The notes beneath the pieces were generated by a model. The model saw nothing but the letters and a program-made list of their open reading frames with translations. It ran no database searches and was not told the DNA's origin. Positions 58,569-64,000 of a DNA stretch of 64,000 nt are shown here, piece by piece (the first letter of the stretch is position 1; each line of letters opens with the position of its first letter). The DNA is from Algoriphagus yeomjeoni (lineage in GTDB: Bacteria > Bacteroidota > Bacteroidia > Cytophagales > Cyclobacteriaceae). The translations under genes and the position numbers were made by a program. The DNA lies in the NCBI RefSeq assembly GCF_003259505.1, contig NZ_QLLK01000006.1:124001-188000 (forward strand). Direction: 5' to 3'.

Positions 58569-59669
58569 TCAATTCAAAGGATTGATCGTCTGAATACTTC
58601 CATCTTCTAGGTGTTTCAATGGGGCAACTTTAATATTTCGTAGGTGAGTTTTACCGGAAAGTTGGGTATCGTGATAGTAAATAAACCAGTTGCCATCAAC
58701 TTCAACAATGGAATGGTGATTGGTCCAACCTTCCACAGGGTTTAGAACTACACCTTGGTAGGTAAATGGTCCATATGGATTATCTGCAATTGCATAAGCA
58801 ATAAAGTGCGTGTCACCTGTAGAATAAGATAAATAATACTTATCCATGTACTTATGAATCCAAGCCGCTTCGAAAAATCTTCTGTCGTTATCTCCATTTA
58901 AAATAGGAGCGCCATTTTCGTCCAAAATCTTGATTTCCTTTGGAGTTTCTGCAAACTGAAGCATGTCATCACTCATTTTTGCAATGATTGGACCTAAAGC
59001 CGGTTCATCGTCAGCAGGAAGCCCATCGGTAGGCGCCGCACCTTTATCTTCAAATTTGTTGTTTCTATACTTTTGCAATTGACCGCCCCAAATACCCCCG
59101 AAATACATATAGTATGATCCGTCTGAATCCTCGAATACCGAAGGGTCAATGCTGTAACTTCCTTTGATCGGCTCAGGCTGAGCAGTGAACGGGCCGATAG
59201 GTGAATCGCCGACAGCTACCCCGATTTTGAAAATATCTTTATCATCTTTTGCAGGAAAATAGAGGTAGTATTTACCATCTTTTTCTGCTGCATCTGGCGC
59301 CCAAAGTTGTCTTTTTGCCCAAGGCACGTCCTCAGCTCCTAGTACTTTTCCGTGATCAGTAATTGCTCCTGATGGAGAATCCATGGAATACACATGGTAA
59401 TCCATCATATTGAAATGCGCACCCAGATCATCCTCAGGAACATCTGACTCTACATCATGGGACGGATAAATGTAAATTTTCCCATCAAAAACATGAGCAG
59501 AAGGATCTGCTGTGTAGTGATCAGAAATTAAGGGTTGGGAAAGATACTTTGAGGTAGTATCACTTACTTCAATTTCTGAAGTGACATCGGTAGTTTCGCT
59601 GGGTTTGCCGCAAGATGCTATCGCAAAAAGCGCACAATAAGCAGGAATTAATTTTACTAGGTTGTTCAT
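58569..59669 (-). CDS. GH43-family glycoside hydrolase, lipoprotein
   Basis: Five-bladed beta-propeller hydrolase, probably acting on arabinose- or xylose-containing glycans. The 366-residue protein from ATG 59669 has a lipoprotein signal (CALFAIASC); a Met 10 codons upstream is the alternative. Catalytic carboxylates are the base Asp in YTADPSAHVFDGKIY, the modulating Asp in SIDPSVFED and the acid Glu in FFEAAWIH. WAPDA and NHHSIVE are further family marks. It is a single gene with a terminator and no SusC/SusD pair, so it is not a full polysaccharide utilisation locus. Confidence 0.87.
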   Translation of the reverse strand: MNNLVKLIPAYCALFAIASCGKPSETTDVTSEIEVSDTTSKYLSQPLISDHYTADPSAHVFDGKIYIYPSHDVESDVPEDDLGAHFNMMDYHVYSMDSPSGAITDHGKVLGAEDVPWAKRQLWAPDAAEKDGKYYLYFPAKDDKDIFKIGVAVGDSPIGPFTAQPEPIKGSYSIDPSVFEDSDGSYYMYFGGIWGGQLQKYRNNKFEDKGAAPTDGLPADDEPALGPIIAKMSDDMLQFAETPKEIKILDENGAPILNGDNDRRFFEAAWIHKYMDKYYLSYSTGDTHFIAYAIADNPYGPFTYQGVVLNPVEGWTNHHSIVEVDGNWFIYYHDTQLSGKTHLRNIKVAPLKHLEDGSIQTINPLN

Positions 59670-59806
59670 AAATAGGTTTGATTGATTAACTGGGGTCAAT
59701 ATAATTTGAAAAAGTGAGTTTTCAGAACAAATGAGGTTGAGGCTAAAGGAAGGAGCATTCTATTTCCCAAAGGCATAAGTAAGACTGTGGCAGCAAAAAT
59801 GTTATT

Positions 59807-60700
59807 TCAATATTCCAGATACCAATTGAAATTTTGATTAAGGATTTCCTGTTTTTCTGATTGTATAAAATCGAGAAAAGCAAGGCTCACAGGAGACATT
59901 TTTTTTCCTTTCAGCCAAATCAAACGCCATTCTGTTTTTAATGGTAGGTCTTCTTGAGTTAGAATAAATAATTGTTTGTTAATAAGTTCATTTTGAATTC
60001 CTATCAGGGGCATAATGGAATACCCGAGTCCTGCTATCACGGCTTGCTTTACAGCTTCATTTGATGTGAGTTCCATCCGTTTTCTTTGATTTACACGATG
60101 AGATTCAAAGTATTTTTCCATGGCAAGTCGTGTTGCAGAACCTTGTTCTCTGTATATCAGTGGTTTATTTTCATCTCTGACAGGTCGGTTTCCTACCAAG
60201 TAAAGTTTGTTTTCAATCAATAATTCCTCTTCAATACTTAGCTTTTCAGGAATCACCGAGACTAGTGCGAAATCAATCTCATTGTTTTTAAGGCTTTCAA
60301 CGACCCGGCTTTTATTGGTAACGTCCAGTACCAAGTCAATACCCGTATTTTTTTCCATAAATCCTGACAAAAAATAAGGGATCACATATTTGCCGGTAGA
60401 GGCTGCTGATATTCGGAGTTTACCGCTCAGGATTCCTTGATAAGCTTGCGTTTTATAGTTGATATTTTCTAATTCTTGGACCACACGCTCTGCAAGTATG
60501 GCAATTTCATGGCCAAAATCTGTTACATGTAATTGCCTGCTTATGACCTCGGTAAGTGGGATTTCAAACTGATCTTGTAAGTTTTTTAATTGGATAGAAA
60601 CAGCCGGTTGAGTCATAAAAAGTTCTTCTGAAGCCTTTGTGATGCTCTTTGTCTGGACCACCTTAAGAAATATCTGAAGCTGGTGTATGGTATAGTTCAT
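59807..60700 (-). CDS. LysR-family regulator divergent from the DAB operon
   Basis: A 297-residue LTTR. The N-terminal winged helix (1-60) reads MNYTIHQLQIFLKVVQTKSITKASEELFMTQPAVSIQLKNL, and the effector domain (about 90-290) has the CbbR/CysB-like opening LSGKLRISAASTGKYVIPYFL. LysR genes next to dabAB are known in other bacteria. It starts 91 bases from the small gene on the other strand, with two dyads in the gap, so it is the likely activator of the carbon-uptake operon, perhaps sensing a low-CO2 metabolite. Confidence 0.9.
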   Translation of the reverse strand: MNYTIHQLQIFLKVVQTKSITKASEELFMTQPAVSIQLKNLQDQFEIPLTEVISRQLHVTDFGHEIAILAERVVQELENINYKTQAYQGILSGKLRISAASTGKYVIPYFLSGFMEKNTGIDLVLDVTNKSRVVESLKNNEIDFALVSVIPEKLSIEEELLIENKLYLVGNRPVRDENKPLIYREQGSATRLAMEKYFESHRVNQRKRMELTSNEAVKQAVIAGLGYSIMPLIGIQNELINKQLFILTQEDLPLKTEWRLIWLKGKKMSPVSLAFLDFIQSEKQEILNQNFNWYLEY

Positions 60701-60709
60701 AAAAATTAC

Positions 60710-60745
60710 TTATGTATTACATAACAAATATAAATAAAAATTTAT
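60710..60745. promoter_or_regulatory. Twin dyads in the lysR-dab divergent region
   Basis: TTATGTATTACATAA (60710-60724, a perfect 7+1+7 palindrome containing the T-N11-A LysR core) and ATAAAT-aaaa-ATTTAT (60730-60745) have centres about 20 bases apart, two helical turns, as in LysR recognition and activation sites. A TAAACTTTG box at 60758-60766 lies just downstream without a TTTG partner, fitting an activator-dependent promoter. Confidence 0.6.
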
Positions 60746-60790
60746 GAATGACATTTTTAAACTTTGCTTCACAAACTAAAATACAAACTA

Positions 60791-61096
60791 ATGAACACAG
60801 CTCAACTAAAACAAAAAACTCTAACTGACACGAATCAGCAGGATCTTATTAAGGGTGAATTTTCGCCAGAAGATGCAATGGAAATTATTAACCATTTATT
60901 CTCCGAAAAAATCAACTTTCATGGAATGAGAAGCTTCAGTAATAAAGTGAGATTTGGCGAGATTGATCAGGTTTCTGAAGCGCGAATAGTGGAGTTGAAA
61001 CAAAGCAATGTAGAATTAAATGAGGTGATAAAATCTGCGAAGTCCCAAGGCAAAACCTTGAAAATAGAATCAGTGGTTACGATTGAAATCATATAA
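60791..61096 (+). CDS. Small protein of unknown function leading the dab operon
   Basis: A 101-residue soluble protein from ATG 60791 (MNTAQLKQK). I do not recognise a family. Visible are GEFSPEDAMEIINHLFSEKINFHGM near residue 30, a helix-rich middle with many Glu and Lys, and a beta-like C-terminus (LKIESVVTIEI). There is no signal, membrane helix or Cys. It is the first gene of the DAB transcript, 13 bases upstream of the chosen dabB start, so it is likely co-translated. A cytoplasmic partner or regulator of the DabAB complex is a reasonable inference. Confidence 0.65.
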   Translation: MNTAQLKQKTLTDTNQQDLIKGEFSPEDAMEIINHLFSEKINFHGMRSFSNKVRFGEIDQVSEARIVELKQSNVELNEVIKSAKSQGKTLKIESVVTIEII

Positions 61097-61109
61097 ATCT
61101 CATTTGACT

Positions 61110-62768
61110 ATGAATCAAAGTTTTCTCGCTTTTGCAGTTTTATTGTCCCCTCTGGTATTCGTACTAACGGCAGTTACATCGTGGTTTCAGAATGGTATAC
61201 ACCCGTCACTTGTAAAAAAAGTGGCAACAGCCTCCACTGTAGTTAGCATTCTAATTGCCGCTTTAAGCGGTTTTTTTGTGGCCAATTATGGGGCTTTAGA
61301 GTCCCCGCTGATCGGAATTGATCAACTAGGGTTGAGTGTAAGATTAGATGCTTTAAGTATTTTGATGCTGGCTATGATAGCACTCATAGGTTTCGTAGTG
61401 GTCCGGTTCAGCATGAATTACTTGGATGGTGATGCGCATCATGGAGCATTTATTGGAAGACTTGCTGCGACAATCGCTTCAGTTCAGCTTCTAGTTATAT
61501 CAGGAAATCTTGCCTTATTATTTGTTTCGTGGGTGCTTACCAGCATGTCACTACATAGATTGCTTGTTTTCTACAAGGACAGACCTGGAGCAATCATCGC
61601 TGCGCGGAAAAAGTACATTGTAGCCAGAATTGGAGATGCTTGCTTGCTAGCAGCGTTTACACTTCTGTATATTCAGTTTAATACAGGAAATCTGGAAGTG
61701 ATCTTTCAGGAGATACAGGCAAATTTGGCTTCCGGTAGCTCTTTGCTAGCCTTAGAGGCAGTTGCAGTACTGCTGGTTTTGGCTGCACTTTTGAAATCTG
61801 CGCAATTCCCTACACATGGCTGGTTGGTTGAAGTGATGGAAACTCCCACACCGGTTTCTGCACTTCTTCACGCAGGCTTGCTGAATGCAGGTCCATTCCT
61901 AATTGTACGTATGGCATTTGTGTTGGAAGCTAGCACTTATGCTCCCTTGATTCTGATTTCTGTCGGAGGATTCACGGCTCTTTTTGCTTCAGTTGTTTTT
62001 CTCACACAAACATCTGTAAAAACAGCCTTGGGATACTCTAGCGTTGCGCATATGGGGTTCAGCTTAATGACTTGTGGCCTCGGGCTTTATCCTGCAGCGA
62101 TGCTGCACTTGGTTGCTCACTCATTTTACAAGGCGCATTCTTTCCTTTCTTCAGGAAGTGTGATTGAGGTTATCAGAGCTTCAAAAGTCACTTCATCAAC
62201 TAGAATCGGCAGCCCATTTAGAATTGCCTTGGGGATTCTCTTAGCATTGGGACTTTATGCCGCATTTGCCTTAGCCTGGGGAATTGATCCCCAAAAGGAA
62301 TTAGCCCTACTTGCACTTGGTGCAGTGATTATAATGGGGCTTTCACGCTTATTTACCACAGCGATTGACTCCAATGGGAGCTTGAAGCTAATGAGTCAAG
62401 CGAGTCTTCTATCTGTGTTAGTTACAGCGGCTTTCTTTACACTGGAGTCTGGATCCCACTTTCTGCTTTCTTCACAAATACCTGAATTAGCAATACCAAA
62501 CTTGTTGGAAATCATACTTATTTCCATCCTACTTCTTGCCTTTGGAGTGACAGTTTTCCTGCAAATAATCGCCCCAAACCTGTCAGCCAAACCATCTTAC
62601 CAGGCAATGGCTATTCATTTGAAAAATGGGCTTTATGCAAATGCAATTTTTGATAGAATGGTCAGAGCTCTTTACTCTCATAAGTATGAAATCAAGTCTG
62701 TTTTAACTGCGGAATTGAGCGAGCAAAAGAATATGAGAGTCTATAGCCCTGAAAAACAACCTGCTTAG
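61110..62768 (+). CDS. dabB: DabB, proton-conducting subunit of the DAB inorganic-carbon pump
   Basis: A 552-residue membrane protein of the NuoL/Mrp antiporter (Proton_antipo_M) type with about 13 membrane segments. Conserved core: LLKSAQFPTHGWLVEVMETPTPVSALLHAG, with the Lys and the PTPVSALLHAG helix of complex-I antiporter subunits, and ALGYSSVAHMGF. With DabA it would couple ion flow to CO2 hydration. An ATG at 61083 overlapping the small gene is an alternative start; 61110 begins right at the first hydrophobic helix. No other complex-I genes are near, which excludes a NADH dehydrogenase role. Confidence 0.9.
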   Translation: MNQSFLAFAVLLSPLVFVLTAVTSWFQNGIHPSLVKKVATASTVVSILIAALSGFFVANYGALESPLIGIDQLGLSVRLDALSILMLAMIALIGFVVVRFSMNYLDGDAHHGAFIGRLAATIASVQLLVISGNLALLFVSWVLTSMSLHRLLVFYKDRPGAIIAARKKYIVARIGDACLLAAFTLLYIQFNTGNLEVIFQEIQANLASGSSLLALEAVAVLLVLAALLKSAQFPTHGWLVEVMETPTPVSALLHAGLLNAGPFLIVRMAFVLEASTYAPLILISVGGFTALFASVVFLTQTSVKTALGYSSVAHMGFSLMTCGLGLYPAAMLHLVAHSFYKAHSFLSSGSVIEVIRASKVTSSTRIGSPFRIALGILLALGLYAAFALAWGIDPQKELALLALGAVIIMGLSRLFTTAIDSNGSLKLMSQASLLSVLVTAAFFTLESGSHFLLSSQIPELAIPNLLEIILISILLLAFGVTVFLQIIAPNLSAKPSYQAMAIHLKNGLYANAIFDRMVRALYSHKYEIKSVLTAELSEQKNMRVYSPEKQPA

Positions 62769-62818
62769 AATTGTAAACTAGTGCTACTTATATATTTATC
62801 TAAAATAATGATAATCAA

Positions 62819-64000
62819 ATGATTAAAGATATTGAATCTGAATATAACTTATTTGAAAACCTAGAAATGAATCAAGAAGTATTACTCAATACTATGCGAG
62901 AAGCAAGTAAGAAAATAGCTCCAGTTTGGCCTTTGGAAAACTTCGTAGCTGTGAATCCTTACTTGGGCTTTACTAGCAAAAAATTCAGCAATGTGGCTCA
63001 GGAATTAGCTACGGCAGGTGCAGTTCAAATGACATTACCGGCATCATTTTACCTGGACAAACTAAATGCAGGAGAAATAATAGAGCGAGACATTGAACAG
63101 GCTCTTAGCAAAGGCGGAGCAAGGATATCTACGGATAAATTTATCAAGATTCTCAAAAAGAAGAATGAGTCAAAGGAGGTAACTAAAACGATTGCTACAG
63201 TAGCAGATCTGGCTACTGAAGTGACTAAAAAAGACTGGGAAAGATTTCTCATCGGCAGAGTCTCTCAATGGGCTGCATCTTATTTTGATAAGGGGCAAGC
63301 AATTTGGGTGGCTTCTGATCAAAAGCAGGATTTGTTTTATTCTTGGAAAACTGAGGCCCAAATTGACCGCACTCCAGAATTGATTGGGTTGAAGGGATTT
63401 AGAAAACTAGTGAAGTCATTACCAGATGATCCGATTAAAGCCACAAAAGTAGCCTTGGATATACTAGGGGTTTCTCCTGAGCAAGCTTCACTTTATTTTC
63501 ACCGCCTGCTCCTAAAAGTAGGTGGATGGGCTGCTTATGCGGCTCGAGTGGATTGGGATTCTGAGCTGTATGGAGGAAAAGACGGAAAAGTTATCGAGTT
63601 TTTAGCCCTGCTCATTTGTTGGGAGGCCTGTCTGCTCGAAAGCTTGAACGAAGAAGAATTATATATAAAATGGGATGATGCAAAAGGTACATTTTCTCTG
63701 CTAAATAATCAGCCGGAATTGAATCAACATTTAGCACATAACCTGATTCTACAGGAGGCTTTTGATTTGGCAGCGCAAAGAAAAATTATCGAGAAATTCG
63801 AACTGGCTGAGCCATCAAAGAGTCAAGAATCAGAGCAGGCTAAAGCACAGGCAATATTCTGCATCGATGTACGATCCGAAGTGTTTCGAAGAAATCTCGA
63901 ATTAGTTGATCACGAAATAGAAACACTTGGATTTGCTGGGTTCTTCGCTTTTCCAATAAAATATGTTCCAATAGGACATAATGAAGGAGAAGCTCAGTGT
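62819..64000 (+). CDS. dabA: DabA (DUF2309), catalytic subunit of the DAB inorganic-carbon pump, 3' end outside window
   Basis: The first 394 residues of a family of about 800. Marks are APVWPLENFVAVNPYLGF at the N-terminus and IFCIDVRSE, giving zinc ligands Cys348 and Asp350, equivalent to Cys351 and Asp353 of Halothiobacillus DabA. The later His and Cys ligands lie beyond the window. DabA is a vectorial carbonic-anhydrase-like protein that traps CO2 as bicarbonate when coupled to DabB. The start at 62819 is 50 bases after dabB; a second Met at 62867 is possible. The frame is open to the window edge. Confidence 0.93.
   Translation, partial: MIKDIESEYNLFENLEMNQEVLLNTMREASKKIAPVWPLENFVAVNPYLGFTSKKFSNVAQELATAGAVQMTLPASFYLDKLNAGEIIERDIEQALSKGGARISTDKFIKILKKKNESKEVTKTIATVADLATEVTKKDWERFLIGRVSQWAASYFDKGQAIWVASDQKQDLFYSWKTEAQIDRTPELIGLKGFRKLVKSLPDDPIKATKVALDILGVSPEQASLYFHRLLLKVGGWAAYAARVDWDSELYGGKDGKVIEFLALLICWEACLLESLNEEELYIKWDDAKGTFSLLNNQPELNQHLAHNLILQEAFDLAAQRKIIEKFELAEPSKSQESEQAKAQAIFCIDVRSEVFRRNLELVDHEIETLGFAGFFAFPIKYVPIGHNEGEAQC

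Follow-up and report, generated by a model that had tools for sequence, protein, structure and literature searches.

A small soluble protein encoded ahead of dabB in Algoriphagus belongs to a Bacteroidota family linked to a LysR-type regulator, inorganic-carbon uptake genes and icd

The window, a 64,000-nucleotide stretch of the Algoriphagus yeomjeoni genome, carries a small gene directly ahead of the inorganic-carbon uptake genes dabB and dabA (Table 1). Judged from gene order and sequence comparison, the proposal that this small gene belongs to a LysR-linked inorganic-carbon circuit is well supported. What its product does biochemically we infer: the chances appear evenly poised that it is an accessory regulator in a LysR-controlled inorganic-carbon/2-oxoglutarate circuit, standing in the place of the cyanobacterial protein SbtB though unrelated to it. 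Its family adjoins either of two unrelated uptake systems or the isocitrate dehydrogenase gene icd, often with one and the same switch, hence a helper of the control circuit is more likely than a part of one pump. The clustering of these genes is taken as shared use, not contact.

Table 1. Features of the dab locus, with positions counted from the first letter of the window.
Feature	Position	Strand	Evidence
Divergent LysR-type regulator, 297 residues	59807..60700	-	PF00126, PF03466
Near-palindromic box TTATGTATTACATAA, forming the first half of the block conserved upstream of LysR	60710..60724	.	Compared over 55 LysR-upstream regions; weaker than second box
Second conserved box AAATATAAATAAAAATTTATGAAT	60726..60749	.	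18 or more of 24 positions matched in 43/55 LysR-upstream regions
TTTG, 13 bases past second box	60763..60766	+	Same 13-base spacing in 38/55 regions
Small-protein gene	60791..61096	+	101 residues plus stop by translation; homologues, dN/dS, AlphaFold2 model
dabB, proton-antiporter-like membrane subunit	61110..62768	+	PF00361 4.5e-41, PF00662 7e-08
dabA, beta-carbonic-anhydrase-like subunit	62819..64000, extends past window end	+	PF10070 8.6e-86 (in-window part)

The order of the operon is small gene, dabB, dabA, with a gap of 13 bases between the small gene and the dabB ATG at 61110, and a LysR-type gene is divergent from the small gene. When the whole genome was scanned, DabA matched PF10070 at 1.2e-255, and the ORF is complete in our extended locus L043 (836 residues). 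The same genome has one beta-carbonic anhydrase and one icd of the circuit type, both away from the dab locus, hence DAB is not the sole carbonic-anhydrase-like system there. An Rfam scan of positions 59500-64000 gave no match. ORFs were the longest frames found by our own script, which leaves some starts approximate. The names of genes come from Pfam scans for the window proteins and for representatives, and from BLAST to those representatives or our own reading for the others.

The small-protein gene is a real gene. All 12 of the homologue pairs compared gave dN/dS values of 0.02-0.31, indicating purifying selection, although the values are rough as several dS exceeded 1. Its product is soluble (best 19-residue hydropathy mean 0.34) and free of cysteine. 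Homologues were found in 12 of the 97 genomes in a sample of relatives, using a single-protein query, and in 30 of the 395 genomes in a phylum sample, with the Algoriphagus genome itself counted in both; named carriers (11 loci) are Algoriphagus, Aquimarina, Dokdonia and one Flavobacterium MAG. The type strains of A. lutimaris and A. iocasae have this operon. By sequence similarity these proteins form an unnamed Bacteroidota family, soluble and 80-120 residues long. Twelve aligned members have L19, G22, F24, A29, K40, I41, N42, H44, R65, L69 and A83 in common; speculatively, K40, H44 and R65 might line an anion site. In one genome the small gene is split across two reading frames (G289, L129:6611-6835) and is therefore broken or mis-assembled there, and tandem double copies occur at L052:8836-9512, L113:6524-7044 and G390:C1:493921-494447.

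Searches for a known relative of the small protein were negative. Pfam returned only two weak, unrelated models at E <= 10, NCBIfam no family, PHROGs no relative, and the best PDB sequence had an E value of 0.4. An alignment of 44 family members gave weak matches of 1-3 members each among the 25 of 80 Pfam families and the 25 of 37 NCBIfam families listed, and nothing under E 0.2 among PDB sequences; tblastn against plasmids found no homologue at E <= 1. AlphaFold2 predicted a beta-alpha-alpha-beta order (strand 14-24, helix 26-55, helix 60-85, strand 90-99) with mean pLDDT 88.6 and pTM 0.71. The same order of elements was predicted from an sbtA-linked member of the Dokdonia type (L138, pLDDT 83.7), the two alignments sharing sequences. 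A Foldseek search of the PDB with the small-protein model found nothing under E 0.001 (best hit FemX, 0.21), and VIA-align 2 matched only helical hairpins over residues ~21-88 (best FemX, Z 8.7), a kind of hairpin that the tool rates as common. The statement in the original prediction that a soluble protein with no recognised family is the first gene of the dab transcript was thus borne out by the translation, the 13-base gap, the family searches and the hydropathy.

The genes surrounding the family are few in kind. Among the relatives, the small gene lies by dab in seven of the 12 genomes, by icd in four and by a LysR gene only in one. Six of the dab-linked copies stand directly before dabB at 9-25 bases, and a weak one (G074, E 0.009) lies behind dabA. 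In the phylum sample of 395 genomes, 31 loci outside the window's genome were examined, adjoining dabAB (n = 9), sbtA (n = 13) or icd (n = 13), with four shared between sbtA and icd. Every one of the 31 adjoins at least one of these genes, and 22 stand beside an inorganic-carbon transporter gene, either dabAB or sbtA. Pfam scans of representatives identified SbtA (PF05982, 9e-113), isocitrate dehydrogenase (PF00180, PF18324), one beta-carbonic anhydrase and one SulP. These contexts bear on whether the small protein is an operon passenger with a general role, for instance as a chaperone, outside inorganic-carbon control. Such a role would accord with the lack of a recognised fold or family and with dab or sbtA genomes that can lack the gene, but we hold it to be highly doubtful, as 31 of 31 loci keep one short list of neighbours while the kind of operon changes.

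Several further genes recur in these clusters. Another small protein (57-94 residues), which has one or two hydrophobic segments, is encoded near the small gene or sbtA at L107, L111, L112, L116, L120, L123, L127, L137, L138, L140, L142 and L176, and also at L193, where the small gene is absent. Several of these proteins are alike around an N-x-L-F-x-D/K stretch, and they could be a small membrane partner. A DUF6671 gene together with a Sua5/TsaC gene was identified by Pfam at L107:4916-6715, and at L111, L112, L115 and L117 the same pair was assigned from similar length and start. TsaC uses bicarbonate as a substrate, which would fit a bicarbonate circuit. A protein of 182-186 residues with a CPFCQME motif has its gene either flanked by the small gene and sbtA or following the icd-small gene pair, at L123, L124:7356-7916 and L125, and no Pfam model scored above its cut-off for the L124 copy. 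Nitrite-reductase-like genes (nirB and nirD by our own reading) adjoin the LysR-icd-small gene cluster or follow dab at L050, L051 and L047, hinting at a nitrogen link.

The original prediction had described DabA and DabB as a two-subunit system to which the co-translated protein could be a regulator or accessory subunit. The two-subunit description is not general, as PMC13144422 describes a three-subunit DAB1 in Halothiobacillus neapolitanus with a small transmembrane extra protein, Hneap_0908. Both are small hypothetical proteins of a dab operon, but Hneap_0908 is transmembrane and by locus number encoded between dabA and dabB, whereas the Algoriphagus protein is soluble and its family is not confined to dab. 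The existence of a three-subunit DAB1, together with the place of the gene at the head of the operon and its short distance to dabB in the six relatives, speaks for a third DAB subunit, or a DAB assembly factor, peculiar to this lineage. We nevertheless judge this very improbable. Homologues without dabAB, the finding that the original prediction had itself named as speaking against a partner dedicated to DAB, were present in five of the 12 relatives-sample genomes and at 22 of the 31 phylum-sample loci, and 17 of 31 genomes with the small gene lack DabA. The solubility of the small protein, set against the membrane-spanning extra protein of DAB1, weighs the same way.

The converse was also seen. 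Seven of 26 LysR-linked dab loci are without the small gene, and a tblastn search of such loci for a remnant (E <= 5) gave short matches only, none of them convincing. No copy was seen by dab in 35 of the 42 relatives with DabA, a count from the single-protein query, which may miss weak copies; the gene is also absent from 20 further dab loci, which were chosen for lacking it. Since the small gene occurs away from dabAB and some dab loci do not have it, the main reading cannot be that of a third subunit dedicated to DAB, which was rejected, and these gene distributions make any dedicated DAB subunit unlikely. Homologues away from dab adjoin sbtA or icd, often with the same LysR gene and operator, so their scatter is not random and the regulator half of the original prediction gains support while the third subunit does not. 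We favour a soluble modulator with the role of SbtB over a structural DAB subunit. A different kind of dab operon, with dabA first and no LysR gene adjoining, has an ORF of 118-125 residues directly before dabA (L066:6176-6532, minus strand; L067:5848-6225, minus; L068:5452-5820, plus; L069:5883-6251, minus); three of these four ORFs were scanned and had no Pfam match.

A LysR gene of the window's type is present at 23 of the 31 phylum-sample loci. The best NCBIfam model for the window's LysR protein is CbbR (NF045990), at 163.2 bits against a cut-off of 450, hence it falls far below what would place it with CbbR. It resembles CcmR and CbbR, which belong to the LysR type and regulate the uptake and fixation of carbon, in that its position suggests control of inorganic-carbon uptake.

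Immediately upstream of the LysR start is a block consisting of TTATG-N5-CAT, then AAATATAAATAAAAATTTATGAAT, then TTTG, which is conserved in dab, sbtA and icd contexts. The second box was significant against resampled sequence (p < 0.01) in 43 of 55 regions and did not fit in 12; the consensus was drawn from the loci on which it was counted, so this figure is a description as much as a test. The TTTG we take to be the likely core of a Bacteroidota -7 promoter element, going by the consensus for such elements. A sigma-70 scan found no plus-strand promoter before the small gene, and the absence of a sigma-70-type promoter is expected for Bacteroidota.

The two-box pattern with up to three mismatches has a single site in the window's genome, before this operon, against 0 in the control. 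The second box plus TTTG at 0-1 mismatch occurs at 10 sites in 395 genomes, eight of them by a small gene and the other two (G033 and G045) by dab without one. One of the 10 best sites precedes an icd-small gene pair that has no LysR neighbour (G235), and in G469 one site points toward dabB and another toward the small gene. A further 10 sites have two mismatches: five lie by a small gene, one in G145 lies by a LysR gene ~18 kb from the small gene, and those in G321, G443 and G379 (two sites) have no explanation. Sites with three mismatches were numerous, mostly unrelated and matched by the reversed control, and were therefore left out of use. The block is a putative operator, apparently an operator-promoter unit common to operons of all three kinds.

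The operator site before the icd-small gene pair in G235 is one reason to consider that the small protein modulates isocitrate dehydrogenase, a source of 2-oxoglutarate and CO2, and is found in dab and sbtA operons through the shared regulator. Another is that nine of the 13 icd-linked loci have neither dabAB nor sbtA. We think this reading improbable, since 18 of the 31 loci have no icd nearby and the icd of the window's genome is ~100 kb off on the same contig, where a whole-genome pattern search found no operator pattern.

Co-occurrence was profiled over 80 genomes, a set that included by choice the 31 with the small gene and left out 24 of the 104 first intended. Close LysR relatives, defined as E <= 1e-98 by a line set after the list was seen, were present in 27 of the 80 genomes; three weaker matches, one each in G438 and G462 and the second match of G045, fall below that line. 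The small gene occurred with LysR in 24 genomes, alone in seven, LysR alone in three and neither in 46 (phi 0.73, Fisher 3e-11), with p-values overstated because the genomes are related. SbtA and DabA each gave phi 0.43 and "SbtA or DabA" 0.71, hence LysR is not clearly a better predictor of the small gene than any carbon transporter. Three of the seven small-gene genomes lacking a close LysR relative have a 40%-identical LysR gene beside the small gene, and five of the 31 have neither SbtA nor DabA.

A co-regulator that partners the LysR protein and sets its response, with the transporters merely members of the regulon, would account for LysR being the best single-gene match in the profile. 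In a 55-row LysR tree, operon kind changes 16 times and the presence of the small gene six times, which points the same way, although most rows entered the tree by way of the small gene, which biases the count. Four genomes (G108, G178, G219 and G398) combine the small gene, LysR and icd, with SbtA and DabA not found. We nonetheless consider a LysR partner rather unlikely, given that either transporter predicts the gene nearly as well, that the three LysR-only genomes exist, and that G351, G394, G411 and G461 have the gene with no LysR match at 1e-60 and none of the window's type adjoining it.

The partner of cyanobacterial SbtA is the P-II-like SbtB (PMC8352866). The sbtA regions of 73 of 89 SbtA genomes were examined, 16 genomes and several second copies being left out. 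Among 75 SbtA ORFs at 73 loci, a P-II gene alone was present within 4 kb of 46, the small gene alone by 13, both by one (L100) and neither by 15. The P-II assignment held in seven of seven sbtA-linked genes tested, which matched PF00543 at 1e-11 to 1e-22. The small gene and P-II thus appear, from gene content, largely to exclude and replace each other at sbtA loci. On an SbtA tree of 78 rows, with four loci added, a clade of 28 rows holds 16 with the small gene, 12 with neither and none with P-II, so most of the exclusion lies within one clade and may be explained by shared descent; L130, which has the small gene, no P-II and a P-II row as sister, is a separate case. P-II was found in none of 16 dab loci with the small gene. 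A P-II-like gene does lie beside dabA at all seven loci of one family, f55 (L203-L209).

SbtB and the small protein are alike in being soluble, ~100 residues long and encoded directly beside inorganic-carbon uptake genes. They differ in that P-II (PF00543) is absent among the matches listed for the small-protein family alignment, and in that the small-protein family is also found with icd, unlike SbtB. SbtB has the P-II ferredoxin-like fold (PMC8352866), whereas the small protein is predicted to be a strand-helix-helix-strand hairpin. Membership of P-II was rejected, as there was no PF00543 match and the predicted E-H-H-E order is not ferredoxin-like with a T-loop.

As an accessory regulator of the circuit, the small protein would work alongside a LysR protein that may sense a shortage of bicarbonate, which is needed for anaplerosis. 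The signal could be 2-oxoglutarate or NADP+, as with CcmR in cyanobacteria, for which PMC3401165 gives 2-oxoglutarate and NADP+ as co-repressors. The LysR protein would turn on the small protein along with icd or the lineage's own uptake system, and the small protein might then adjust the response by acting on the transporter, the LysR protein or isocitrate dehydrogenase. A tentative extension, against which we lean, is that in Bacteroidota this family, though unrelated to P-II, takes the part of SbtB. Its members would be soluble sensors or modulators serving DAB and SbtA as well as isocitrate dehydrogenase, all governed by a single LysR operator, and would tie the supply of bicarbonate to 2-oxoglutarate in organisms that are not regarded as autotrophic.

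DAB and SbtA have been studied chiefly for carbon fixation. A search of the open-licence literature found no paper on a small protein or operator common to DAB and SbtA in Bacteroidota. The regulation of DAB is named an open question (PMC13144422) and that of SbtA by SbtB in vivo is called unsolved (PMC8352866). If the proposed role is true, a small protein and an operator common to both systems would mean that bicarbonate supply is managed in Bacteroidota as a single regulated resource, regardless of the pump present, and would offer a handle on this regulation in Algoriphagus, Dokdonia and Aquimarina, which can be cultured.
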